18,768 bases of DNA, taken from the NCBI GenBank assembly GCA_016278415.1, contig JADQBV010000407.1, positions 1 to 18,768 on the forward strand, given 5' to 3'. Shown in pieces: positions 5,617 to 15,586 of this stretch. The translations under genes were made by a program, and so were the position numbers. How positions within the stretch are numbered: position 1 is the stretch's first letter; each line of letters starts with the position of its first letter. Below the pieces are notes generated by a model that worked only from the letters and a program-made list of their open reading frames with translations, had not been told where the DNA came from and searched no databases. Source of the stretch: Halanaerobiales bacterium (GTDB lineage: Bacteria > Bacillota_F > Halanaerobiia > Halanaerobiales > DTU029).

Positions 5617-7533
5617 TTAAATTTTATCAAAATCAATATTACACAACAAATCTACAACATTAGGATCAAATTGCTTACCTGCACAACGCTGTAGCTCTTC
5701 TATAGCCGCTTGATGACTTATAGCCTTTTTATATGGGCGGTCATGAGTCATTACATCATATGCATCTATAACAGTAATAATCCTTGATAACAGCGGGATT
5801 TCTATGCCTTTCTTACCCAAAGGGTAGCCTTTACCGTCCCACCTTTCATGGTGATATAGAATGTAAGTTGCTATTTGAGATAATTCAAAGGAGGCTTGGG
5901 CTATCCGATAACCGGCCTCAGAATGTTTTTTGATTTCTCTCCATTCTTCCTCGTTTAAAGGACCAGGTTTATTTAAAATACTATCATCAATTACAACTTT
6001 CCCAATATCATGGAGCATAGCTAAAACTTTTAAATCATCAAGTTCACTTCCCATCAGATCCATACTTGATCCTAAAACCGTTGACAGCTTACTCATTCGT
6101 TCAGCATGACCAGCAGTCTCAAAACACTTCTCGACCAAAGTTTCTTTTAATGATTTCATCAAAGAGCTACGAAAGCTTTTTGTTTCCAATAGTTTATGAC
6201 GATACATTCTGTCCTCAGCTCTTTTCATAACTGACTCTATATCATCATTTATATGCTCTCTAGTGGCACTGCCAAGAGATATACTTAATTTTATTTTAGA
6301 ATTATCTTCTTCAAGACAGGCCTTCTTTATTTCCTTAGATAATTTATCTGTAACAGTCTTATCTTTACCAGGTAAAAAAATAAAAAATTCATCCCCACCC
6401 CAACGAATGATTAGGTCATCTTTTGAACAGGCATTACGTAATATATCAGCAATCTTCTTCAAAATCTCATCACCAGCAAGATGTCCAAAAACATCATTTG
6501 TTACTTTTAAGCCATTAACATCACCGACAATTACGGATAACGGTAAATACTCTTTCGATCTATATTGTGGTAATGCTTTATCTAAATGAGTACGATTATG
6601 CAATCCAGTCAAACTATCATAAAATGCTGATTGCTGTAAATCAGAAAATAAACGGATATTATCAATAGAATTAGCAAACTGGCTACATAAAATACGCAGG
6701 CTATCTAGAAGTAAATCAGAAAAAGGATGTAATGTATATATATTGTCAAAAAGTACCACTCCCACTATACCCGTGTTTGCTCTCAATGGAAACCAATAGC
6801 CTAAAGCGTTCTCTAATGGAATAAATTCCTTAGATAGATCAGGTAATTCTGGAAAATCTTCAATCAAATAGACTTCTCCCTTTTCGTTAATTCCTTCACC
6901 ATAGATTACTTCTTTATCATCATCAATAATAAATGTAGTAACCCTATCAAACTTAAACTTTTCTATAATTATACCCATGAAGGTAGTAATCAGTGTATTT
7001 AAATCATCAATAGACTGTAATCGTCGATTGATATCTATAGAAATATCTGTATTCTTTTTTATTCTAATTGTATCTGATTTAAATATAACACTACTTAATC
7101 CCAGAGAAATGGCCAAAGCCATCTTTTTAAACTTAGCAAGCAGTTCATTTGAAAATTCCTCCGTAGAACGAAATTCCATTAAACCTAATAATTGATTACT
7201 ACTAAGTAGTGGTATTAATAGGTAATGGTAGTTATTATCTTTAAATCTAAAAATATTCTTTTTTTCCCTTATCTCATCAGGAAGTTGATAAAAGGGTATC
7301 AAGTCATAGCCTGGTCGCCAACCAAGATCGCTGTATATTACTTCCTCCTTAAAATTTTCCATCTGACTATCTATCACATAGAAGCGAAGTTGATCAATCA
7401 AACTTTCTAATCTATTATATAAAAACCTTGCTGTCTTTTCATATATTAGGGTATCATTATAACTATTTGTTAAAAATTCTGCTGTGTCTAATCCTATGAC
7501 TATCGGATTATTTAGTTGATTAATCTCTTTCAT
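5617..7533 (-). CDS. GAF-GAF-GGDEF-HD-GYP cyclic-di-GMP turnover protein
   Basis: A 638-residue cytoplasmic protein without membrane segments. Two GAF-like sensory regions (roughly 25-150 and 165-297) precede a GGDEF domain starting at YDSLTGLHNR (305-314), with intact RWGGDEF (active-site GGDEF at 379-383). An HD-GYP domain follows with H476, the HD pair H508-D509, H537, H561-H562, GYP (569-571) and D590, so the metal ligands of a c-di-GMP phosphodiesterase are present. The position of the inhibitory RxxD site reads SKDD, so allosteric product inhibition of the cyclase is probably lost. The ATG at 7531-7533 overlaps the end of the solute-binding protein gene by 14 bases, with GAGGGATT just before it, indicating translational coupling. 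Net activity (synthesis or breakdown) cannot be told from sequence; both sites look intact. Confidence 0.93.
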   Translation of the reverse strand: MKEINQLNNPIVIGLDTAEFLTNSYNDTLIYEKTARFLYNRLESLIDQLRFYVIDSQMENFKEEVIYSDLGWRPGYDLIPFYQLPDEIREKKNIFRFKDNNYHYLLIPLLSSNQLLGLMEFRSTEEFSNELLAKFKKMALAISLGLSSVIFKSDTIRIKKNTDISIDINRRLQSIDDLNTLITTFMGIIIEKFKFDRVTTFIIDDDKEVIYGEGINEKGEVYLIEDFPELPDLSKEFIPLENALGYWFPLRANTGIVGVVLFDNIYTLHPFSDLLLDSLRILCSQFANSIDNIRLFSDLQQSAFYDSLTGLHNRTHLDKALPQYRSKEYLPLSVIVGDVNGLKVTNDVFGHLAGDEILKKIADILRNACSKDDLIIRWGGDEFFIFLPGKDKTVTDKLSKEIKKACLEEDNSKIKLSISLGSATREHINDDIESVMKRAEDRMYRHKLLETKSFRSSLMKSLKETLVEKCFETAGHAERMSKLSTVLGSSMDLMGSELDDLKVLAMLHDIGKVVIDDSILNKPGPLNEEEWREIKKHSEAGYRIAQASFELSQIATYILYHHERWDGKGYPLGKKGIEIPLLSRIITVIDAYDVMTHDRPYKKAISHQAAIEELQRCAGKQFDPNVVDLLCNIDFDKI

Positions 7534-8782
7534 AATCCCTCATCTCCCAGGACATTTTTAGTAAGTCTACAATGCTTTGGTCCGTTTCTTCTAACAATCT
7601 GTATGCCTCTTGATTAATCTCTGTAATACCCTTATCTATTAATTCCCAGATACTATGAGCAACACCTGTACTTAAAATATTTTCAATAGTAGCCCATGCT
7701 GGATATGCTGGATATGAGCATGTATTAATCGACTGTTCATGCATAATATTTATTCTTTCATCAGTATGACGTTTCTCCCAAAAATCAACATTAAAAGCAG
7801 GCACCTTTCCAGTAACAGATATCCATTCATTTATAAAATCATCTTTTAGAAAACTCTCTACCAATCTCCAGGCCTTTTCCTTATGTTTTGATCTTGACGA
7901 GACCACCAGGACAGATCCTCCACCATAGCTCCGTGCCTTATTACTATCATCAGCAGGAAATGGTAGTATAGTGTAGTCAAAATTACCATCTTCTGACTTC
8001 ACAGGATTATGGGAAATATCTTCTATAATACCATACCAACTCCCTATATAAAATACAAAAGACCCATAGCGATAAAACTCTTCATTTAATTGATAGGGGT
8101 GTTTTTCTATATCTGCAGCCTTGATATCACAGACCTGCATTAAGTCAGCCAAATAACTAATATTCTCTAAAACTGTATCACTTGTTAAGATATGTTCTGG
8201 GGTTTTATATAGATCAGGAAACTGCCATCCCTTTGCCCAGAGTAATGCAGAAAATCGATGTAGTGTATCTACTTCTGCTCTTAATGAGAAGGCCAGGGGT
8301 TTTGGTAAATCAGGGTTAAATCTCCTTTGCTCTGTTATACCCTTACAAACTTGATAAAACTTTTCCCAGTTATCCACATCTGACTTTTTAATAGCTAAGT
8401 CCCTCATGTAGTCTGTTCGTGCAGCCAGCACAATAGTATCAACATTCCAGGGAACAGCATATTGACTTCCATTATACATACATATATCATTCATATTATT
8501 AATAAATGAACTCCTAATACTAGTATTCTCAGGAACACTATCTATATATCCCATATAAGCCAATGTCCTTATCCATGTACTACCTATCTGGATGACATCT
8601 GGGGCATTATCATTTTTATATGCCTCAATGAGTGCCTCAAAAGCCCTATTCCAGGTTACAAGTTTCAACTCTATTTTTATCTTGTTCTCTAGCTGGAATT
8701 GGCTAAACCTTTTTTTTAAGAACTTAAGAACATCATGCTCTTTTGAAGTAATTATTAACCAGACTCTCAAGGTATCATCCAT
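7520..8782 (-). CDS. Solute-binding protein (family 1) lacking an export signal
   Basis: A 420-residue protein with the fold of ABC-transporter family 1 (sugar-type) binding proteins. Typical segments are PDVIQIGSTW (61-70), YMGYIDSVPE, YAVPWNVDT (108-116), a DNWEKFYQVCKGI helix, FYIGSWYG (244-251), SYGGGSVLVVSS (285-296) and TGKVPAF (324-330). The chain begins MDDTLRVWLI, which already corresponds to the first beta strand of a mature binding protein. No signal peptide or lipobox precedes it, even if the in-frame ATG at 8839 were used. The ATG at 8780-8782 is selected from AGGG eight bases upstream. No permease or ATPase gene adjoins it; its stop codon overlaps the start of the GGDEF/HD-GYP gene. 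I infer a cytoplasmic ligand sensor working with that enzyme. Alternatives are a decayed transport protein or a missed upstream export signal. Confidence 0.85.
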   Translation of the reverse strand: MDDTLRVWLIITSKEHDVLKFLKKRFSQFQLENKIKIELKLVTWNRAFEALIEAYKNDNAPDVIQIGSTWIRTLAYMGYIDSVPENTSIRSSFINNMNDICMYNGSQYAVPWNVDTIVLAARTDYMRDLAIKKSDVDNWEKFYQVCKGITEQRRFNPDLPKPLAFSLRAEVDTLHRFSALLWAKGWQFPDLYKTPEHILTSDTVLENISYLADLMQVCDIKAADIEKHPYQLNEEFYRYGSFVFYIGSWYGIIEDISHNPVKSEDGNFDYTILPFPADDSNKARSYGGGSVLVVSSRSKHKEKAWRLVESFLKDDFINEWISVTGKVPAFNVDFWEKRHTDERINIMHEQSINTCSYPAYPAWATIENILSTGVAHSIWELIDKGITEINQEAYRLLEETDQSIVDLLKMSWEMRDYERD

Positions 8783-8885
8783 TAGACCAACCCTTCCCTT
8801 AATATAAGTGCGTATAATTCCATCATAGAACAACCACATGTTTGTCCTTATTCCAAAATAATAAGTAATATCATTTGATTTTTTA

Positions 8886-10185: not shown

Positions 10186-12735
10186 TTAAGGTTCAATATC
10201 CTCTTCAATTATATTAATAAACACCTTAGCTAGCTCTGGATCAAACTGACTGCCAGCACAGTCCTTTATCTCCTTAAGTACTTCTCTTTTACTCATAGCC
10301 TTTTTATAAGAACGACCATTTGTCATCACATCATAGGCATCTACAATACTAATTATCCGAGCTAAAAGGGGGATTTCCTCTCCCGCAAGACCCTCAGGGT
10401 AACCTGTTCCATTCCAGCGCTCATGATGTGCCAGAATATCATTAGCTACATGGGCAAACTCTTCAGTTGATGAAGTAATACGATATCCTGCCTCTGGGTG
10501 CTTCTTTATCTGCTCCCACTCTTCTTCTGTTAATTTACCTGGCTTAGTCAGAATTTCTTCAGAAATAACTGTTTTACCTATATCATGGAGAGATGCTAGT
10601 AAAGCTAACCTATTCAATTCAGAGTAATGTAGATTTATTCTTTTACCAATAGCAACGGCTAACTCTTTTAAACGAAGGGCATGTTCCTCTGTTTCTTGAC
10701 TCTTCTCTTTTAGAGTGCTGAGGAGCGCATTTAAAATATTGTTTTTAGCACTTCGGTTCTCTATCAGCTTATTCTTATACATTCTGTCTTCAGCCTTTTT
10801 GAATGTATGCTCTAAATCTCCACCATTTTTCTCTTTAACAGCAATACCTATTGCAATAGAGACAGGGATTTCTTCTTGCCAGGTCTTATCACATCTATTT
10901 TTAATTCTTTCATATATTTTATTTGCATCTTCCTTTGATGTCCGTGGTAACAAAATAACAAATTCATCACCACCCCACCGTGATAGAATGTCTTCTTCAC
11001 GACAAGATTCCCTTAATATATTAGCTGCCTTAACCAACAATTGGTCACCTTTATCATGGCCATATGTATCATTAATCAACTTTAGCCCGTTAATATCACC
11101 CATTATTAAGCCAAGTGGTAGCTGCTCCTTGCTATCATACATTTTCATCTTTTCTTCTATATAAACCCTATTATGTAAGTCAGTTAAACTATCATGATAA
11201 CTAATATACCTAACCTGTTCTTCAAATTTCCTTCTATCACTAATATCACGAACAAACTCAACTACAGCATTAACATCACCAGACTTACTATCAATAATAG
11301 GATAGCTAAATATTTCCAGCCATTTGGGCTTATCTCCTTTTGTCTGTAAGATAATCTCACTTTCCATCTCTCCACTTTCAAAAGAACGCAGAGTTGGACA
11401 GACCTTACAGACCTCACTCTTACCATGAAAGACTTTATAGCACTCACGACCTTCTATAGGTGTGTACTGTGCAAACCTCTCCTTCATAGACTTATTTACA
11501 TGATGGATTTTTAAATCTTTATCTATAACACAAATACCATCCTGAATACTTTCAAGTATTGCATGTAGTAGATTGGCATTCTCCTCTAATTTCTTTTCCG
11601 CCTTTTTACGCTCGGTTATATCTGAGACAAAACCATCAATAATAAAGATCTCATCAGCTGGGTTCTGACCAATCCTCGCATCCATTTCCAGCCAGATATG
11701 AGCACCATCTGCTCGAAGAGCCTGGTATTGGAACTTGTTTACTTCACCTTTCTCTTCTAATAAATTAAGAAACTCCTGCCGGCGCTTTGCACATACATAT
11801 AAATCCTGAGCCAGATTCTGGTATCTCTCATAAACCTCTTCTTCAGTACTACAGGCTAATATTTCTACCATAGCTGGGTTTATAGTCAACACTTCTCCCT
11901 TAGAATTAGTCCTGAATATTCCAAGAGGAGCCTTACTAACCAAGGTTCGAAACTTCTTTTCACTCTCTTTGACTATTTCTTCTTGTTTATATTTTTCTGT
12001 AATATCACGGAATACCAGTACTACTCCATAAAGCTCACCTTCATTATCCATAATTGGCGCAGCACTATCTGCAATCTGATACTCGTTACTATCTCTACCA
12101 ATTAAGACAGTATGATTAGCCAACCCTACTATACTACCTGTCTTTAAGACCTCAGCAACTGGGTTTTCAACAGCTTTACGAGTATTAGCGTTTATTATAT
12201 TAAAAACCTCTGATAACTTACGTCCTTTAGCATCACTTAATGTACAGGCGGTTAGATCCTCTGCCACTTTATTCATACGGGTTATCAAACCATTTACATC
12301 AGTAGCAATTACAGCATCACCAATTGAGGCCAGTGTAACAGATAAATTGTTCTGATTTTCCTTAAGTTCTTCTTCAACCTCTCTTCTTTCCTCTATATCT
12401 TTTCCTACAATTATCGCTAATAAAAAATAAACACCTATATTACTTAAGATATGTGTAAAACCTGATTTTAAATCTATAACTACAGATATAAGAAGTAATA
12501 TTGATAACCATATAGCCGCCAATATTCCACCCTTCACTTCATATAATAATACTGATAATATTATAAATAAGACTCCAAAAAACTCCAGGTAAGTAATTGA
12601 CGAAAAAAATGACAACAATAATAAGAGGGCAGCATAGATTATTAACATGATAAGACCACATCTGCATTTCATAGAACCTATATTTTTTTCTCTCTGGAAA
12701 AATTCATTAATATTTCTAAAATTCATATCTACCAT
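10186..12735 (-). CDS. Membrane PAS-PAS-PAS-GGDEF-HD-GYP sensor
   Basis: An 849-residue protein with a hydrophobic membrane part (three to four segments between 27 and 111), then three PAS domains (about 125-250, 256-378, 385-505), a GGDEF domain beginning SYHDSLTDLHNR (512-523) and a C-terminal HD-GYP domain. GGDEF is intact (588-592) and preceded by RxxD (R579-EE-D582), so the cyclase should respond to product inhibition. HD-GYP ligands are present: H685, H717-D718, H746, H770-H771, GYP (778-780), D799. The third PAS carries a cysteine cluster, ECYKVFHG (C432) and VCKVCP (C443, C446), seen in a PAS subtype that may hold metal, heme or a redox switch. Start: ATG at 12735 with GAGGGGTG eight bases upstream. 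The C-terminal half is closely similar to that of the GAF protein at 5617-7533, so the two are paralogues. Signal sensed is unknown. Confidence 0.93.
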   Translation of the reverse strand: MVDMNFRNINEFFQREKNIGSMKCRCGLIMLIIYAALLLLLSFFSSITYLEFFGVLFIILSVLLYEVKGGILAAIWLSILLLISVVIDLKSGFTHILSNIGVYFLLAIIVGKDIEERREVEEELKENQNNLSVTLASIGDAVIATDVNGLITRMNKVAEDLTACTLSDAKGRKLSEVFNIINANTRKAVENPVAEVLKTGSIVGLANHTVLIGRDSNEYQIADSAAPIMDNEGELYGVVLVFRDITEKYKQEEIVKESEKKFRTLVSKAPLGIFRTNSKGEVLTINPAMVEILACSTEEEVYERYQNLAQDLYVCAKRRQEFLNLLEEKGEVNKFQYQALRADGAHIWLEMDARIGQNPADEIFIIDGFVSDITERKKAEKKLEENANLLHAILESIQDGICVIDKDLKIHHVNKSMKERFAQYTPIEGRECYKVFHGKSEVCKVCPTLRSFESGEMESEIILQTKGDKPKWLEIFSYPIIDSKSGDVNAVVEFVRDISDRRKFEEQVRYISYHDSLTDLHNRVYIEEKMKMYDSKEQLPLGLIMGDINGLKLINDTYGHDKGDQLLVKAANILRESCREEDILSRWGGDEFVILLPRTSKEDANKIYERIKNRCDKTWQEEIPVSIAIGIAVKEKNGGDLEHTFKKAEDRMYKNKLIENRSAKNNILNALLSTLKEKSQETEEHALRLKELAVAIGKRINLHYSELNRLALLASLHDIGKTVISEEILTKPGKLTEEEWEQIKKHPEAGYRITSSTEEFAHVANDILAHHERWNGTGYPEGLAGEEIPLLARIISIVDAYDVMTNGRSYKKAMSKREVLKEIKDCAGSQFDPELAKVFINIIEEDIEP

Positions 12736-12889: not shown

Positions 12890-15586
12890 TCAAGCCCCAT
12901 ATATCTCCTGTGTCACTAAATCGGCAACTACAGTAATACCCTTATCTATGTCACAAACATGAACAACCCCCTGATATTTATTACTATTGGGAACTAGCTC
13001 AGCAAGCCTATTCTCTTTCTCTAATAGAAAATCCTCATTAAAAGTAACCTCTTTATTATCAGGAAATAGTGCGATATATAAGATATTTGACTCTACCAAA
13101 TCCTGAAAGAAATGGGAACCAAAAGATAATTCAGGAACCAAAACACCATTGTTAGAAGCAACCTCCATAAGAATAGTTGTGTGATTGATTTCAGAAAACC
13201 TCACTGGGACTCCCAAAGACGGAGTAGATGTTCCCCACCTACCAGGCCCAATTAACAATATGGGTAAATCAATTTGTCTGTCAATCTGTCTATTCAATTT
13301 CCCAATTAATCGTGCTATATCATATTTTTCATGCTGAGGTAGATTACTATACGCCTCTGGTCTTACATATATAATCCTTCTAATGGGTTGGATATAACTA
13401 CCACCCATAAAATTTCCTTTACTACTGAATAATATATTCTCCTTATTTACTACTGATTTTGCATCGTTAACTATATTTTCATCATCTTCTCCAGAATCTA
13501 TACCTGCGTTGACTTGTTCATCTGATTTAATATTTTTTTCCTGCTTAGATTTTATTTGTAATGGGCGGCACTGTACTAAGTTGACCTTAATATCTAAATC
13601 TTCGGTAATATTCACAGTAAACTCAATATCAACTGGATATTGATAAGCCTTTTCTAAGTCTTTCAAAATACCCTTCATTATAAGAGGGAAATCTGTATTT
13701 AATAATAATGACTCAAAATTTATGATCCAGGCCTCTTCATCCTCTATTCCTAATTGACGCATTCTATCAACTGTCTGCCGATCAAGTTTACCGAATAATT
13801 TCATCTGTGGTATGTCTATATCTTTCCCCATCAAACTGGAAACAGAAAGAATCTCCAGGCTATTTTTGGGGATATCCAGTAGATCAATCTTATGTTGAGA
13901 ATATTTTCTGCTATCCTCATTATTAGAATAAGATTGTAAACTAAGATTATCTAGAGCAACAATACGAGGGTAATCCCCCTCCACCCTATTAACAGCACGA
14001 GTACCCAGCCCAAAAACCAAACGTAACATTCCCGCCTCGGGATCCAATTTATCACTCCAAGCAAAGGTATTATACGAGACACCAACCCCAGCAGCATCTG
14101 GGAAAAAGTAATTATTACGGTATTTACCAGAAACCCTTTGTACCAATAAAGCCATCTGCTCATCCTTTTCACTTAAGCCTCTTTCCCTACGATAAACAAG
14201 GGCATCTTCATTCATAGAACTTGCATAGACCTTTCTCACTGTTTCTTCAAACTGATTGTAGCGTTCTTCAGGTGTCCCTTGGTTTACACAAAAGTAACTA
14301 TCATATTTGCCAGCAAAGGCATTACCATAACCATCCTCTAAAAGACTACTGGAACGTACTATTATAGGAGACTGGCCAAAATAATCCAACATATTGTGAA
14401 ACTGACTCTTTATTTCATCAGGAAACTTACCATTTAACAACTTATCCCTCAGTTCATCTGCAAGATAGTAATAACCCTCTTCTGTCTTCTGCTTTAAACG
14501 CAATTTCCACCAGCCATTTTGTACTATATATGTATAGAAAACATCAGAACCTATATAGAAGGAATCATGTTCTTCCAGGGAATCCGAGTATATAGGACTA
14601 TTACTCTTATGAAGGATATTACGAGCTAAGAGCATACCTAGAGACTTACCTCCAATAAATCCAGTCCCTATCAACCTATTATTTATCTCTAACAAATCTT
14701 TAAGATCAAAATATTTATCTATTAAATTACTAATCCTCTCATCCTTTGTAAGCATCAGTCGATAAATTTTTTCAAACATTTCACTATATCCTAGAGGCTT
14801 TTCCCCAAGACCATTACTAGAGCTCCGGGAATTACTGTCAGATCCAGCAGTACTTCCATTTAATAAATTTTTCGCTTCCCAGAACAATCTATCCCAATAA
14901 TCCAAATTTCTTTCTAAATTCTTTTCACTATTATTTAAAAGATTTGAAAACAAATTGCTTGCAGCAAAACTACTGGTAACAGGTTCAAAATCCTTACCTT
15001 TTTTTAAGTGAGGAAGAAACATGGTGGGCGAATACCGATTCATTACTTTGATTGGATGTAGGTAATAATCATCGTCTTCCTGATATAAATCCAAAAGCAA
15101 TTGAGTAGTGTCCTGAATACGAGCTATAGTTTTGTAGGAGTGTCTTTCACGAAAAATACCAAAATAAGCAATAGTATCAAGCTCATAGAGATAAGGACAG
15201 ACTACCACAAAAAAGTTCCCAATCATTAAATCAGTCGCCCAGGAAAAGAGTAAATCAGAAAGGCAATCAAAAACATAATAAACCCCTTTACCTTCCCTGG
15301 TAATTATATTATGGATATCAGAAGCAAAAGATTCAAAACCCACATCTGCATCCAAGTGATAGACCTTTAAATCTGGATCATTGACATCAAGTAGTGCTTC
15401 ATGCTGAGCAAACCTCATATAAACAACCCTCTTATTTTCATCTATTGCACGCTTTGCAAAGTGTTTAACAAAAAAACGGTAGGAATCAATTTTATTAATT
15501 TGCCAGACTACATTATCACCTTTTCTAAGCCCCTGTAAAGTTTCATCAAGACCATCTAAGCCTGTATGTGCCCAATCAAAGTTCAT
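12890..15586 (-). CDS. KaiC-like/PPDK-N (PEP/pyruvate-binding) fusion protein
   Basis: An 898-residue cytoplasmic protein in three parts. Residues 1-195 resemble a RecA/KaiC-type domain: GLDGLDETLQGLRKGDNVVW (9-28) and a Walker-B-like YYVFDCLSDL (103-112); the Walker A lysine-threonine is absent, so nucleotide hydrolysis there is doubtful. A Ser/Asn/Gly linker (243-262) leads to an ATP-grasp domain of the pyruvate phosphate dikinase N-terminal type, with IGGKSLGM (311-318), IIVRSSSLLEDGYGNAFAGKYDSY (408-431) and LVQCRPL (670-676). A second acidic linker (680-715) precedes a C-terminal domain with LLIGPGRWGTSTPSLGVPVRF (777-797). The swivelling phosphohistidine domain and PEP-binding barrel of true PPDK/PEP synthase are missing, so it is not a complete dikinase. 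It may phosphorylate or sense something with ATP; substrate unknown. Start: ATG after GAGGGGGAAATT. Confidence 0.85.
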   Translation of the reverse strand: MNFDWAHTGLDGLDETLQGLRKGDNVVWQINKIDSYRFFVKHFAKRAIDENKRVVYMRFAQHEALLDVNDPDLKVYHLDADVGFESFASDIHNIITREGKGVYYVFDCLSDLLFSWATDLMIGNFFVVVCPYLYELDTIAYFGIFRERHSYKTIARIQDTTQLLLDLYQEDDDYYLHPIKVMNRYSPTMFLPHLKKGKDFEPVTSSFAASNLFSNLLNNSEKNLERNLDYWDRLFWEAKNLLNGSTAGSDSNSRSSSNGLGEKPLGYSEMFEKIYRLMLTKDERISNLIDKYFDLKDLLEINNRLIGTGFIGGKSLGMLLARNILHKSNSPIYSDSLEEHDSFYIGSDVFYTYIVQNGWWKLRLKQKTEEGYYYLADELRDKLLNGKFPDEIKSQFHNMLDYFGQSPIIVRSSSLLEDGYGNAFAGKYDSYFCVNQGTPEERYNQFEETVRKVYASSMNEDALVYRRERGLSEKDEQMALLVQRVSGKYRNNYFFPDAAGVGVSYNTFAWSDKLDPEAGMLRLVFGLGTRAVNRVEGDYPRIVALDNLSLQSYSNNEDSRKYSQHKIDLLDIPKNSLEILSVSSLMGKDIDIPQMKLFGKLDRQTVDRMRQLGIEDEEAWIINFESLLLNTDFPLIMKGILKDLEKAYQYPVDIEFTVNITEDLDIKVNLVQCRPLQIKSKQEKNIKSDEQVNAGIDSGEDDENIVNDAKSVVNKENILFSSKGNFMGGSYIQPIRRIIYVRPEAYSNLPQHEKYDIARLIGKLNRQIDRQIDLPILLIGPGRWGTSTPSLGVPVRFSEINHTTILMEVASNNGVLVPELSFGSHFFQDLVESNILYIALFPDNKEVTFNEDFLLEKENRLAELVPNSNKYQGVVHVCDIDKGITVVADLVTQEIYGA

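Follow-up and report, generated by a model that had tools for sequence, protein, structure and literature searches.

The overlapping gene pair

The stretch of DNA analysed here, hereafter the window (18,768 nucleotides; contig JADQBV010000407.1 of the Halanaerobiales assembly GCA_016278415.1), carries on its minus strand a gene for a leaderless family-1 solute-binding protein (SBP) and, directly downstream, a gene for a soluble enzyme of cyclic di-GMP (c-di-GMP) turnover. The SBP gene (7520–8782; 420 amino acids) is delimited by its open reading frame (ORF), by Pfam, by the predicted structure and by a start shared with 13 of 13 database relatives; the enzyme gene (5617–7533; 638 amino acids, GAF-GAF-GGDEF-HD-GYP) is delimited by its ORF, Pfam and model. 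The SBP stop codon lies at 7520–7522 and the enzyme start codon at 7531–7533, so the two genes overlap by exactly 14 nucleotides (7520–7533), as an initial annotation of the window had stated. A GAGGG run resembling a Shine-Dalgarno sequence can be read ahead of the enzyme ATG.

The SBP matches the Pfam families SBP_bac_8 (5e-22) and SBP_bac_1 (5e-14), and its fold is borne out by Pfam, by the model (mean predicted local distance difference test score, pLDDT, 92) and by PDB matches. From the conserved start at 8782 the protein reads MDDTLRVWLI, which is its first beta strand. The ORF spans 7520–8839, and an alternative start at 8839 (minus strand; 439-residue product) would lengthen the protein by 19 residues in which there is no hydrophobic core (highest Kyte-Doolittle mean over 12 residues, 0.71), an extension that is absent in all 13 database relatives. 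By eye, no signal peptide can be read in any of the three frames ahead of the gene; a short run, MILLIILE, occurs in one other upstream frame and is closed by a stop codon.

In the enzyme, Pfam recognises a GGDEF domain (5e-31; residues 303–448, 6190–6627) with an intact GGDEF motif at 6385–6399, and an HD_5/HD-GYP domain (1e-35; residues 462–626, 5656–6150) with intact HDIGK and HHERWDGKGYP motifs, all on the minus strand. The two GAF domains of the initial annotation were not detected by Pfam and appear only in the model (mean pLDDT 89, predicted template-modelling score 0.60), which places two alpha/beta domains at the N-terminus. The first GAF-like domain (about residues 10–125, 7159–7506) is delimited by model secondary structure and PDB fold matches, and the second (about residues 178–265, 6739–7002) by the model, by PDB fold matches and by Pfam GAF scores in three of four soluble partners scanned. 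The N-terminus of the model matches the tandem GAF domains of PDE5A (E = 2e-10, root-mean-square deviation about 6) and also, with a poorer superposition, a phytochrome-activated cyclase. The GG[DE]E[FI] motif is intact in 21 of 21 partner enzymes, that of the window included, and the HD-GYP motifs are intact in all five partners that have the domain, which are those of Halanaerobiales or the window. By its motifs the partner is a putative c-di-GMP enzyme of the GGDEF/HD-GYP type.

As the initial annotation had noted, no permease or transport ATPase adjoins the SBP gene: none was recognised in the window, where 11 proteins were scanned with Pfam and the remainder read from the ORF list. No regulatory RNA in the window matched Rfam at gathering scores.

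Leader, pairing and membrane sidedness in relatives

A protein search returned 14 proteins including that of the window. The 13 relatives are 412–419 residues long, those bearing an organism name are Halanaerobiales, and in the alignment of the 14 proteins (A1) all 13 are leaderless and begin at the same strand. The signal peptide or lipobox required of an SBP serving an ATP-binding cassette (ABC) importer is thus absent from the window protein and from 13 of 13 relatives, judged by alignment, by the frames read by eye and by hydrophobicity; here and below, leaders and transmembrane helices were called by simple hydrophobicity limits and not by a trained predictor. These three approaches agree with the initial annotation, in which the SBP begins at its first strand without an export signal. 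The absence of the leader is conserved in the close relatives and through a wide clade, and no upstream frameshift hiding a leader was seen by eye in the window gene or in its GGDEF-linked relatives. In many Elusimicrobiota copies the stop-to-stop frames measure about 400 codons and therefore leave no room for a leader.

A genome scan with the window protein as single query found no relative, whereas with alignment A1 it found 188, from which 79 loci were kept. These contain 89 SBP genes scoring at least 60 bits, 34 leaderless and 55 leadered; a 16-residue limit gives 35 leaderless genes, and L046, in which 15 residues look like a signal peptide, was moved to the leadered set. All 55 leadered extensions satisfy the hydrophobicity rule. 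A GGDEF gene lies directly downstream of 20 of the 34 leaderless SBP genes, mostly with a short overlap or gap (overstated as overlap in L004, L007 and L050, where the partner ORF was taken from its first possible start), and one locus, L002, carries the pair twice in tandem. The 20 pairs occur in Bacillota (Halanaerobiales and others), Fibrobacterota, Elusimicrobiota, Auribacterota and unplaced genomes. Because it is conserved across phyla, the pairing of the two genes is considered more than chance; the tight linkage for which the initial annotation had looked to relatives is conserved.

The partners of the leaderless SBPs are soluble: convincing transmembrane helices were found in none of the 20, and the strongest hydrophobic stretch (2.21) lies in the GAF-like region of the partner in L056. 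Ten leadered SBPs also have a GGDEF gene directly downstream, eight in Fibrobacter (L040, L059, L064, L065, L066, L071, L073, L077) and two in Paenibacillaceae (L043, L044), and each of these ten enzymes carries two transmembrane helices. Within the ten, L071 is identical to L073, and L065 is nearly so to L066. The L040 partner, the one of the ten that was scanned, shows weak dCache and HAMP matches below the Pfam cut-offs. Therefore SBP and enzyme share a side of the membrane in all 30 pairs (Fisher p = 3e-8, a value that ignores relatedness). This agreement in sidedness is the main argument for proposing a contact between SBP and enzyme.

In two loci, L010 and L015, the pair is immediately preceded by two permease genes, and the cluster also contains a separate lipoprotein SBP. 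The leaderless SBP was considered as a recent copy of this neighbour and the idea was rejected, since the two are 23% identical in L010 and give no BLAST match in L015, against 28–30% identity of the leaderless proteins to the window protein. Because the transporter has its own lipoprotein SBP, the leaderless SBP is additional to it. The linkage to permease genes that might have overturned the sensor idea was seen in these two loci and does not refute it.

The distribution within phyla was surveyed further. Among 340 Elusimicrobiota genomes 124 had a match, and 130 of 131 listed matches were examined (G270:C18 was left out). A GGDEF gene immediately follows every one of the 92 evaluable leaderless SBPs; four of these belong to loci already among the 20 (L010, L015, L031, L070), L098 has an upstream in-frame hydrophobic stretch (1.68) with no start codon before it, and L110 contains masked letters. 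Seven further leaderless SBPs are cut by the end of a contig or region. In contrast, none of the 27 evaluable leadered SBPs (29 in total, including two not evaluable) is followed by a GGDEF gene, 20 of them being fused to a permease and seven having at least 1.5 kb downstream without one. Two rows were misscored, L139 (start missing) and L220 (which has a leader), and are present solely in the 'noSP_cut' group of the Elusimicrobiota residue comparison. The hydrophobic maximum in the 92, measured ahead of GGDEF, is 1.91; in the ten leadered pairs above the value is at least 2.59 in each except L065 and L066, whose strongest stretches are 2.84 and 2.89. Copies of 401–402 residues, among the 120 listed of 159 relatives of one of these proteins, belong to species whose names read as Elusimicrobium simillimum, E. 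posterum and Parelusimicrobium proximum.

In 149 genomes from the phylum of Halanaerobium saccharolyticum, a leaderless match at 1e-30 was found in that genome only, and two other matches are ordinary SBPs that have a leader and permeases next to them. A leader and an adjacent permease are present in five of five ordinary relatives from the same or sampled genomes. Further surveys covered 167 Fibrobacterota and 249 Bacillota genomes (at most 30 loci from each) and eight genomes of known loci. Their 57 rows comprise eight leaderless SBPs with soluble GGDEF partners, one leaderless SBP that is cut (L233), two leadered SBPs with a GGDEF partner bearing two transmembrane helices (one of them, L227, in the L043 genome), and 46 leadered SBPs for which no GGDEF gene was seen, many of these being Fibrobacter genes with a two-helix neighbour truncated ahead of the place where GGDEF would start. 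The distinct leaderless pairs seen number 20 + 88 + 1, plus that of the window. The leaderless pair is common in Elusimicrobiota and sporadic elsewhere in these samples.

Other arrangements were met in Elusimicrobiota. The SBP is joined to a permease-like multi-helix part in one protein in L104, L106–L109, L111, L112, L114, L116, L117 and L119. Long Elusimicrobiota frames considered as SBP-GGDEF fusions proved instead to be leadered SBP-permease fusions or open frames running over ordinary pairs. In L103, L113 and L120 the gene upstream of the pair begins like TsaD, read by eye, and the gene order is shared.

In a maximum-likelihood tree of 39 rows a branch supported at 97/96 separates all 20 leaderless proteins from the leadered ones, and a quick tree of 93 rows agrees with this split between leaderless and leadered proteins. 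The 39 rows were thinned by hand from the 93-row tree, and L038 sits on a long branch. The tree is unrooted and gives no direction of change by itself; because the leadered state is usual in the family, we infer that the leader was lost rather than gained. The distances among SBPs correlate with those among their partners (Mantel r = 0.86; 18 of the 20 pairs, L045 and L079 being omitted as near-duplicates).

The proposed sensor and its rivals

The closest structures to the SBP model are CbpB with cellodextrins, a Thermotoga SBP, the Thermus beta-glycoside-binding protein and a beta-1,2-gluco-oligosaccharide-binding protein. Of the positions mutated in the Thermus structures, W41 falls on window W44, W67 on W70 and E117 on D115, with numbering inferred from consistent offsets. 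In CbpB, W90 and W296 stack on glucose units (PMC9601137); at a single offset of 48 these correspond to window W44 and W249, both invariant in the 14 proteins of A1. W44 is retained in 30 of 30 rows of alignment A3, and W70 and W112 nearly everywhere. The window SBP is predicted from the model to be a binder of the cellodextrin or beta-glucoside type, and it keeps part of a known sugar site. Since pocket residues vary between clades, the ligand is not the same throughout. Residues specific to leaderless proteins were also considered as a contact site, and only K56 stands out (14 of 14 Halanaerobiales, 31 of 31 diverse and 55 of 77 low-scoring Elusimicrobiota proteins, 6% of 84 leadered ones), which is too little to name an interface.

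We consider it probable that the SBP senses carbohydrate in the cytosol and controls the turnover of c-di-GMP by way of its partner's two GAF domains. The cytosolic location and the gene pairing are well supported, and the ligand, the GAF contact and the direction of control are proposed on them. An SBP without the export signal of a transporter would act as a stand-alone sensor for the c-di-GMP enzyme encoded next to it. The two lobes of the SBP would close on a sugar that is imported or made internally, for the window protein most likely a gluco-oligosaccharide or beta-glucoside. The closed form, or else the open one, would then attach to the tandem GAF domains of the soluble enzyme. The helix linking GAF to GGDEF might then shift and change c-di-GMP synthesis, and in Halanaerobiales the balance with hydrolysis by HD-GYP might change too. 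The initial annotation had suggested such an internal ligand sensor acting by protein contact; location, conserved pairing and sidedness all favour it, while the contact and the ligand still belong to the proposal.

Several findings weigh against this sensor reading or narrow it. Fourteen leaderless SBPs in five loci (L026:1855-9604, L034:9995-13721, L039:9986-12480, L041:6079-8573, L048:4526-5806) have no adjacent GGDEF gene and form a separate branch of the 93-row tree (support 87). No SBP-GGDEF fusion was found among the 21 partner relatives, judged by Pfam columns, or in the long frames inspected. The Mantel correlation is the co-inheritance expected of any operon; many of the pairs in Elusimicrobiota are closely related and do not count as independent; and the Bacillota and Fibrobacterota surveys, with at most 30 loci from each, gave a single new leaderless pair (L229, with its first strand masked), the other seven being re-found loci. 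In the pocket, the window has V171 where the Thermus protein has W177, the fourth of the mutated positions; Arg takes the place of W44 in 73 of 77 low-scoring Elusimicrobiota copies, and only 8 of 15 high-scoring ones retain the Trp; and W249 is present at its column in 6 of 112 leaderless GGDEF-linked rows, including Halanaerobiales L001–L003.

The five loci without a GGDEF gene contain one to six leaderless SBP genes each, in tandem in four of the five; L026, L034, L039 and L048 are titled Elusimicrobia or Elusimicrobiota, and L041 comes from an unplaced bacterium. In L039 and L048 a divergent GAF-HD-GYP gene adjoins the leaderless SBP gene. In L026 a PAS gene, truncated by the contig end, lies beside the SBP array, and a hydrophobic stretch resembling a signal anchor can be read in another frame at about 1700–1850, directly upstream of the first SBP of the array; such a stretch was not noticed upstream of the other five copies.

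Among other explanations, the one nearest to the preferred reading is that the SBP senses a non-sugar or a compound made by the cell (a nucleotide sugar, a fragment of storage glucan or a precursor of exopolysaccharide) rather than a nutrient taken up from outside. As a variant it is compatible with the sensor and is a possible, though not the favoured, form of it: a cytosolic receptor sees the internal pool, and the pocket varies by clade, as with the Arg at position 44 noted above; on the other hand, the window keeps two of the four gluco-oligosaccharide site residues tested, with the third replaced conservatively, and the nearest solved proteins bind oligosaccharides. Another account holds that the SBP is cytosolic and binds its ligand independently of the enzyme, as a sugar buffer or carrier, with the genes merely co-expressed and the GAF domains sensing, for example, a cyclic nucleotide. 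In c-di-GMP enzymes the GAF domains can themselves take up small ligands, sensors of cyclic AMP and GDP being listed in a review (PMC8846402), and the five loci without a GGDEF neighbour fit such an SBP. The match in sidedness, leaderless with soluble in 20 of 20 and leadered with membrane-bound in 10 of 10, across phyla, is hard to explain without contact, and we regard this account as rather unlikely.

An ordinary transport SBP whose leader was missed through a wrong start or a frameshift, or which is exported by another route, is very improbable. The Pfam family is that of ABC importers and permeases stand directly upstream in L010 and L015, but no leader was seen in any frame of the window gene, many Elusimicrobiota frames leave no room for one, the GGDEF partners are soluble, and the transporter in L010 and L015 has a separate lipoprotein SBP.

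Elsewhere in the window, 10186–12735 (minus strand) encodes a second GGDEF-HD-GYP protein with three PAS domains by Pfam and hydrophobic N-terminal segments by eye, and 12890–15586 (minus strand) encodes an 898-residue protein with a PPDK_N domain by Pfam, the N-terminal third of which has no Pfam match and looks RecA/KaiC-like by eye. In Halanaerobium saccharolyticum a flagellin gene (L001:8961-9785) lies directly upstream of the pair.

Related systems and significance

MbaA of Vibrio cholerae is a membrane receptor, its partner NspS and the protein AmiC belong to SBP families other than that of the window SBP, and SiaC is not an SBP. In NspS-MbaA a periplasmic solute-binding protein serves as the sensor of a c-di-GMP enzyme (PMC5646818, PMC8967002). 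The likeness lies in an SBP as sensor subunit of such an enzyme, the SBP gene adjoining a GGDEF gene in the window; in NspS-MbaA, however, the SBP is periplasmic and the enzyme membrane-bound, while the window pair has neither export signal nor membrane segments. An exported SBP with a membrane enzyme of this type is found instead in the Fibrobacter and Paenibacillaceae pairs. AmiC is described in PMC9602780 as a cytosolic single-domain protein with an SBP signature that forms a ligand-regulated complex with AmiR in transcription antitermination. It resembles the window pair as a cytosolic SBP-like sensor encoded with its effector (cytosolic by sequence only in the window) and differs in its partner, which is an antiterminator and not a GGDEF-HD-GYP c-di-GMP enzyme.

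Separate sensors are known for cyclases as well. PMC8846402 lists an H-NOX sensor, Hnox1, with the diguanylate cyclase Lpg1057; there nitric oxide is sensed by a heme domain, whereas the sensor of the window pair would be a sugar-binding fold. In SiaC-SiaD, as seen in the entry 7e6g, a diguanylate cyclase is complexed with a separate activator protein. Among solved structures, CbpB of Clostridium thermocellum and the beta-glycoside-binding protein of Thermus come closest in fold and sequence; these serve importers, unlike the leaderless window SBP, near which no transporter genes were recognised in the window.

That SBPs activate extracytoplasmic receptors, c-di-GMP enzymes included, is given as established in PMC9602780. 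In the 2022 review of c-di-GMP sensing (PMC8846402) the periplasmic-binding-protein clan is called prevalent in c-di-GMP proteins, with only SBP_bac_3 studied and the domains periplasmic, and EIIA-Glc, a phosphotransferase protein, is given as a carbohydrate example. Searches of the open-access literature directed at the pair or at cytosolic SBPs yielded no description of a leaderless SBP paired with a c-di-GMP enzyme, subscription papers and preprints being outside their scope. The view in the initial annotation that this is not a described system holds in that literature for the pair itself and has to be tempered for its parts, which have precedents in AmiC-AmiR, H-NOX-cyclase and NspS-MbaA: the class of mechanism is known, and the combination of SBP and enzyme and its spread appear not to have been described.

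A wider statement, which we judge evenly balanced, would be that the pair is a two-gene receptor present in several phyla, in which the SBP moved inside once and internal carbohydrate is read directly into c-di-GMP, with an outer mirror in Fibrobacter and Paenibacillaceae and with the inner copies annotated as 'extracellular'. Few sugar inputs to c-di-GMP are known. If the reading is true, the conserved pairing of a cytosolic SBP with a cyclase would represent a further class of receptor for carbohydrate inside the cell and would account for a set of proteins now labelled 'extracellular solute-binding protein'; it would also constitute a modular sensor whose ligand, contact and output could each be tested with two soluble proteins.

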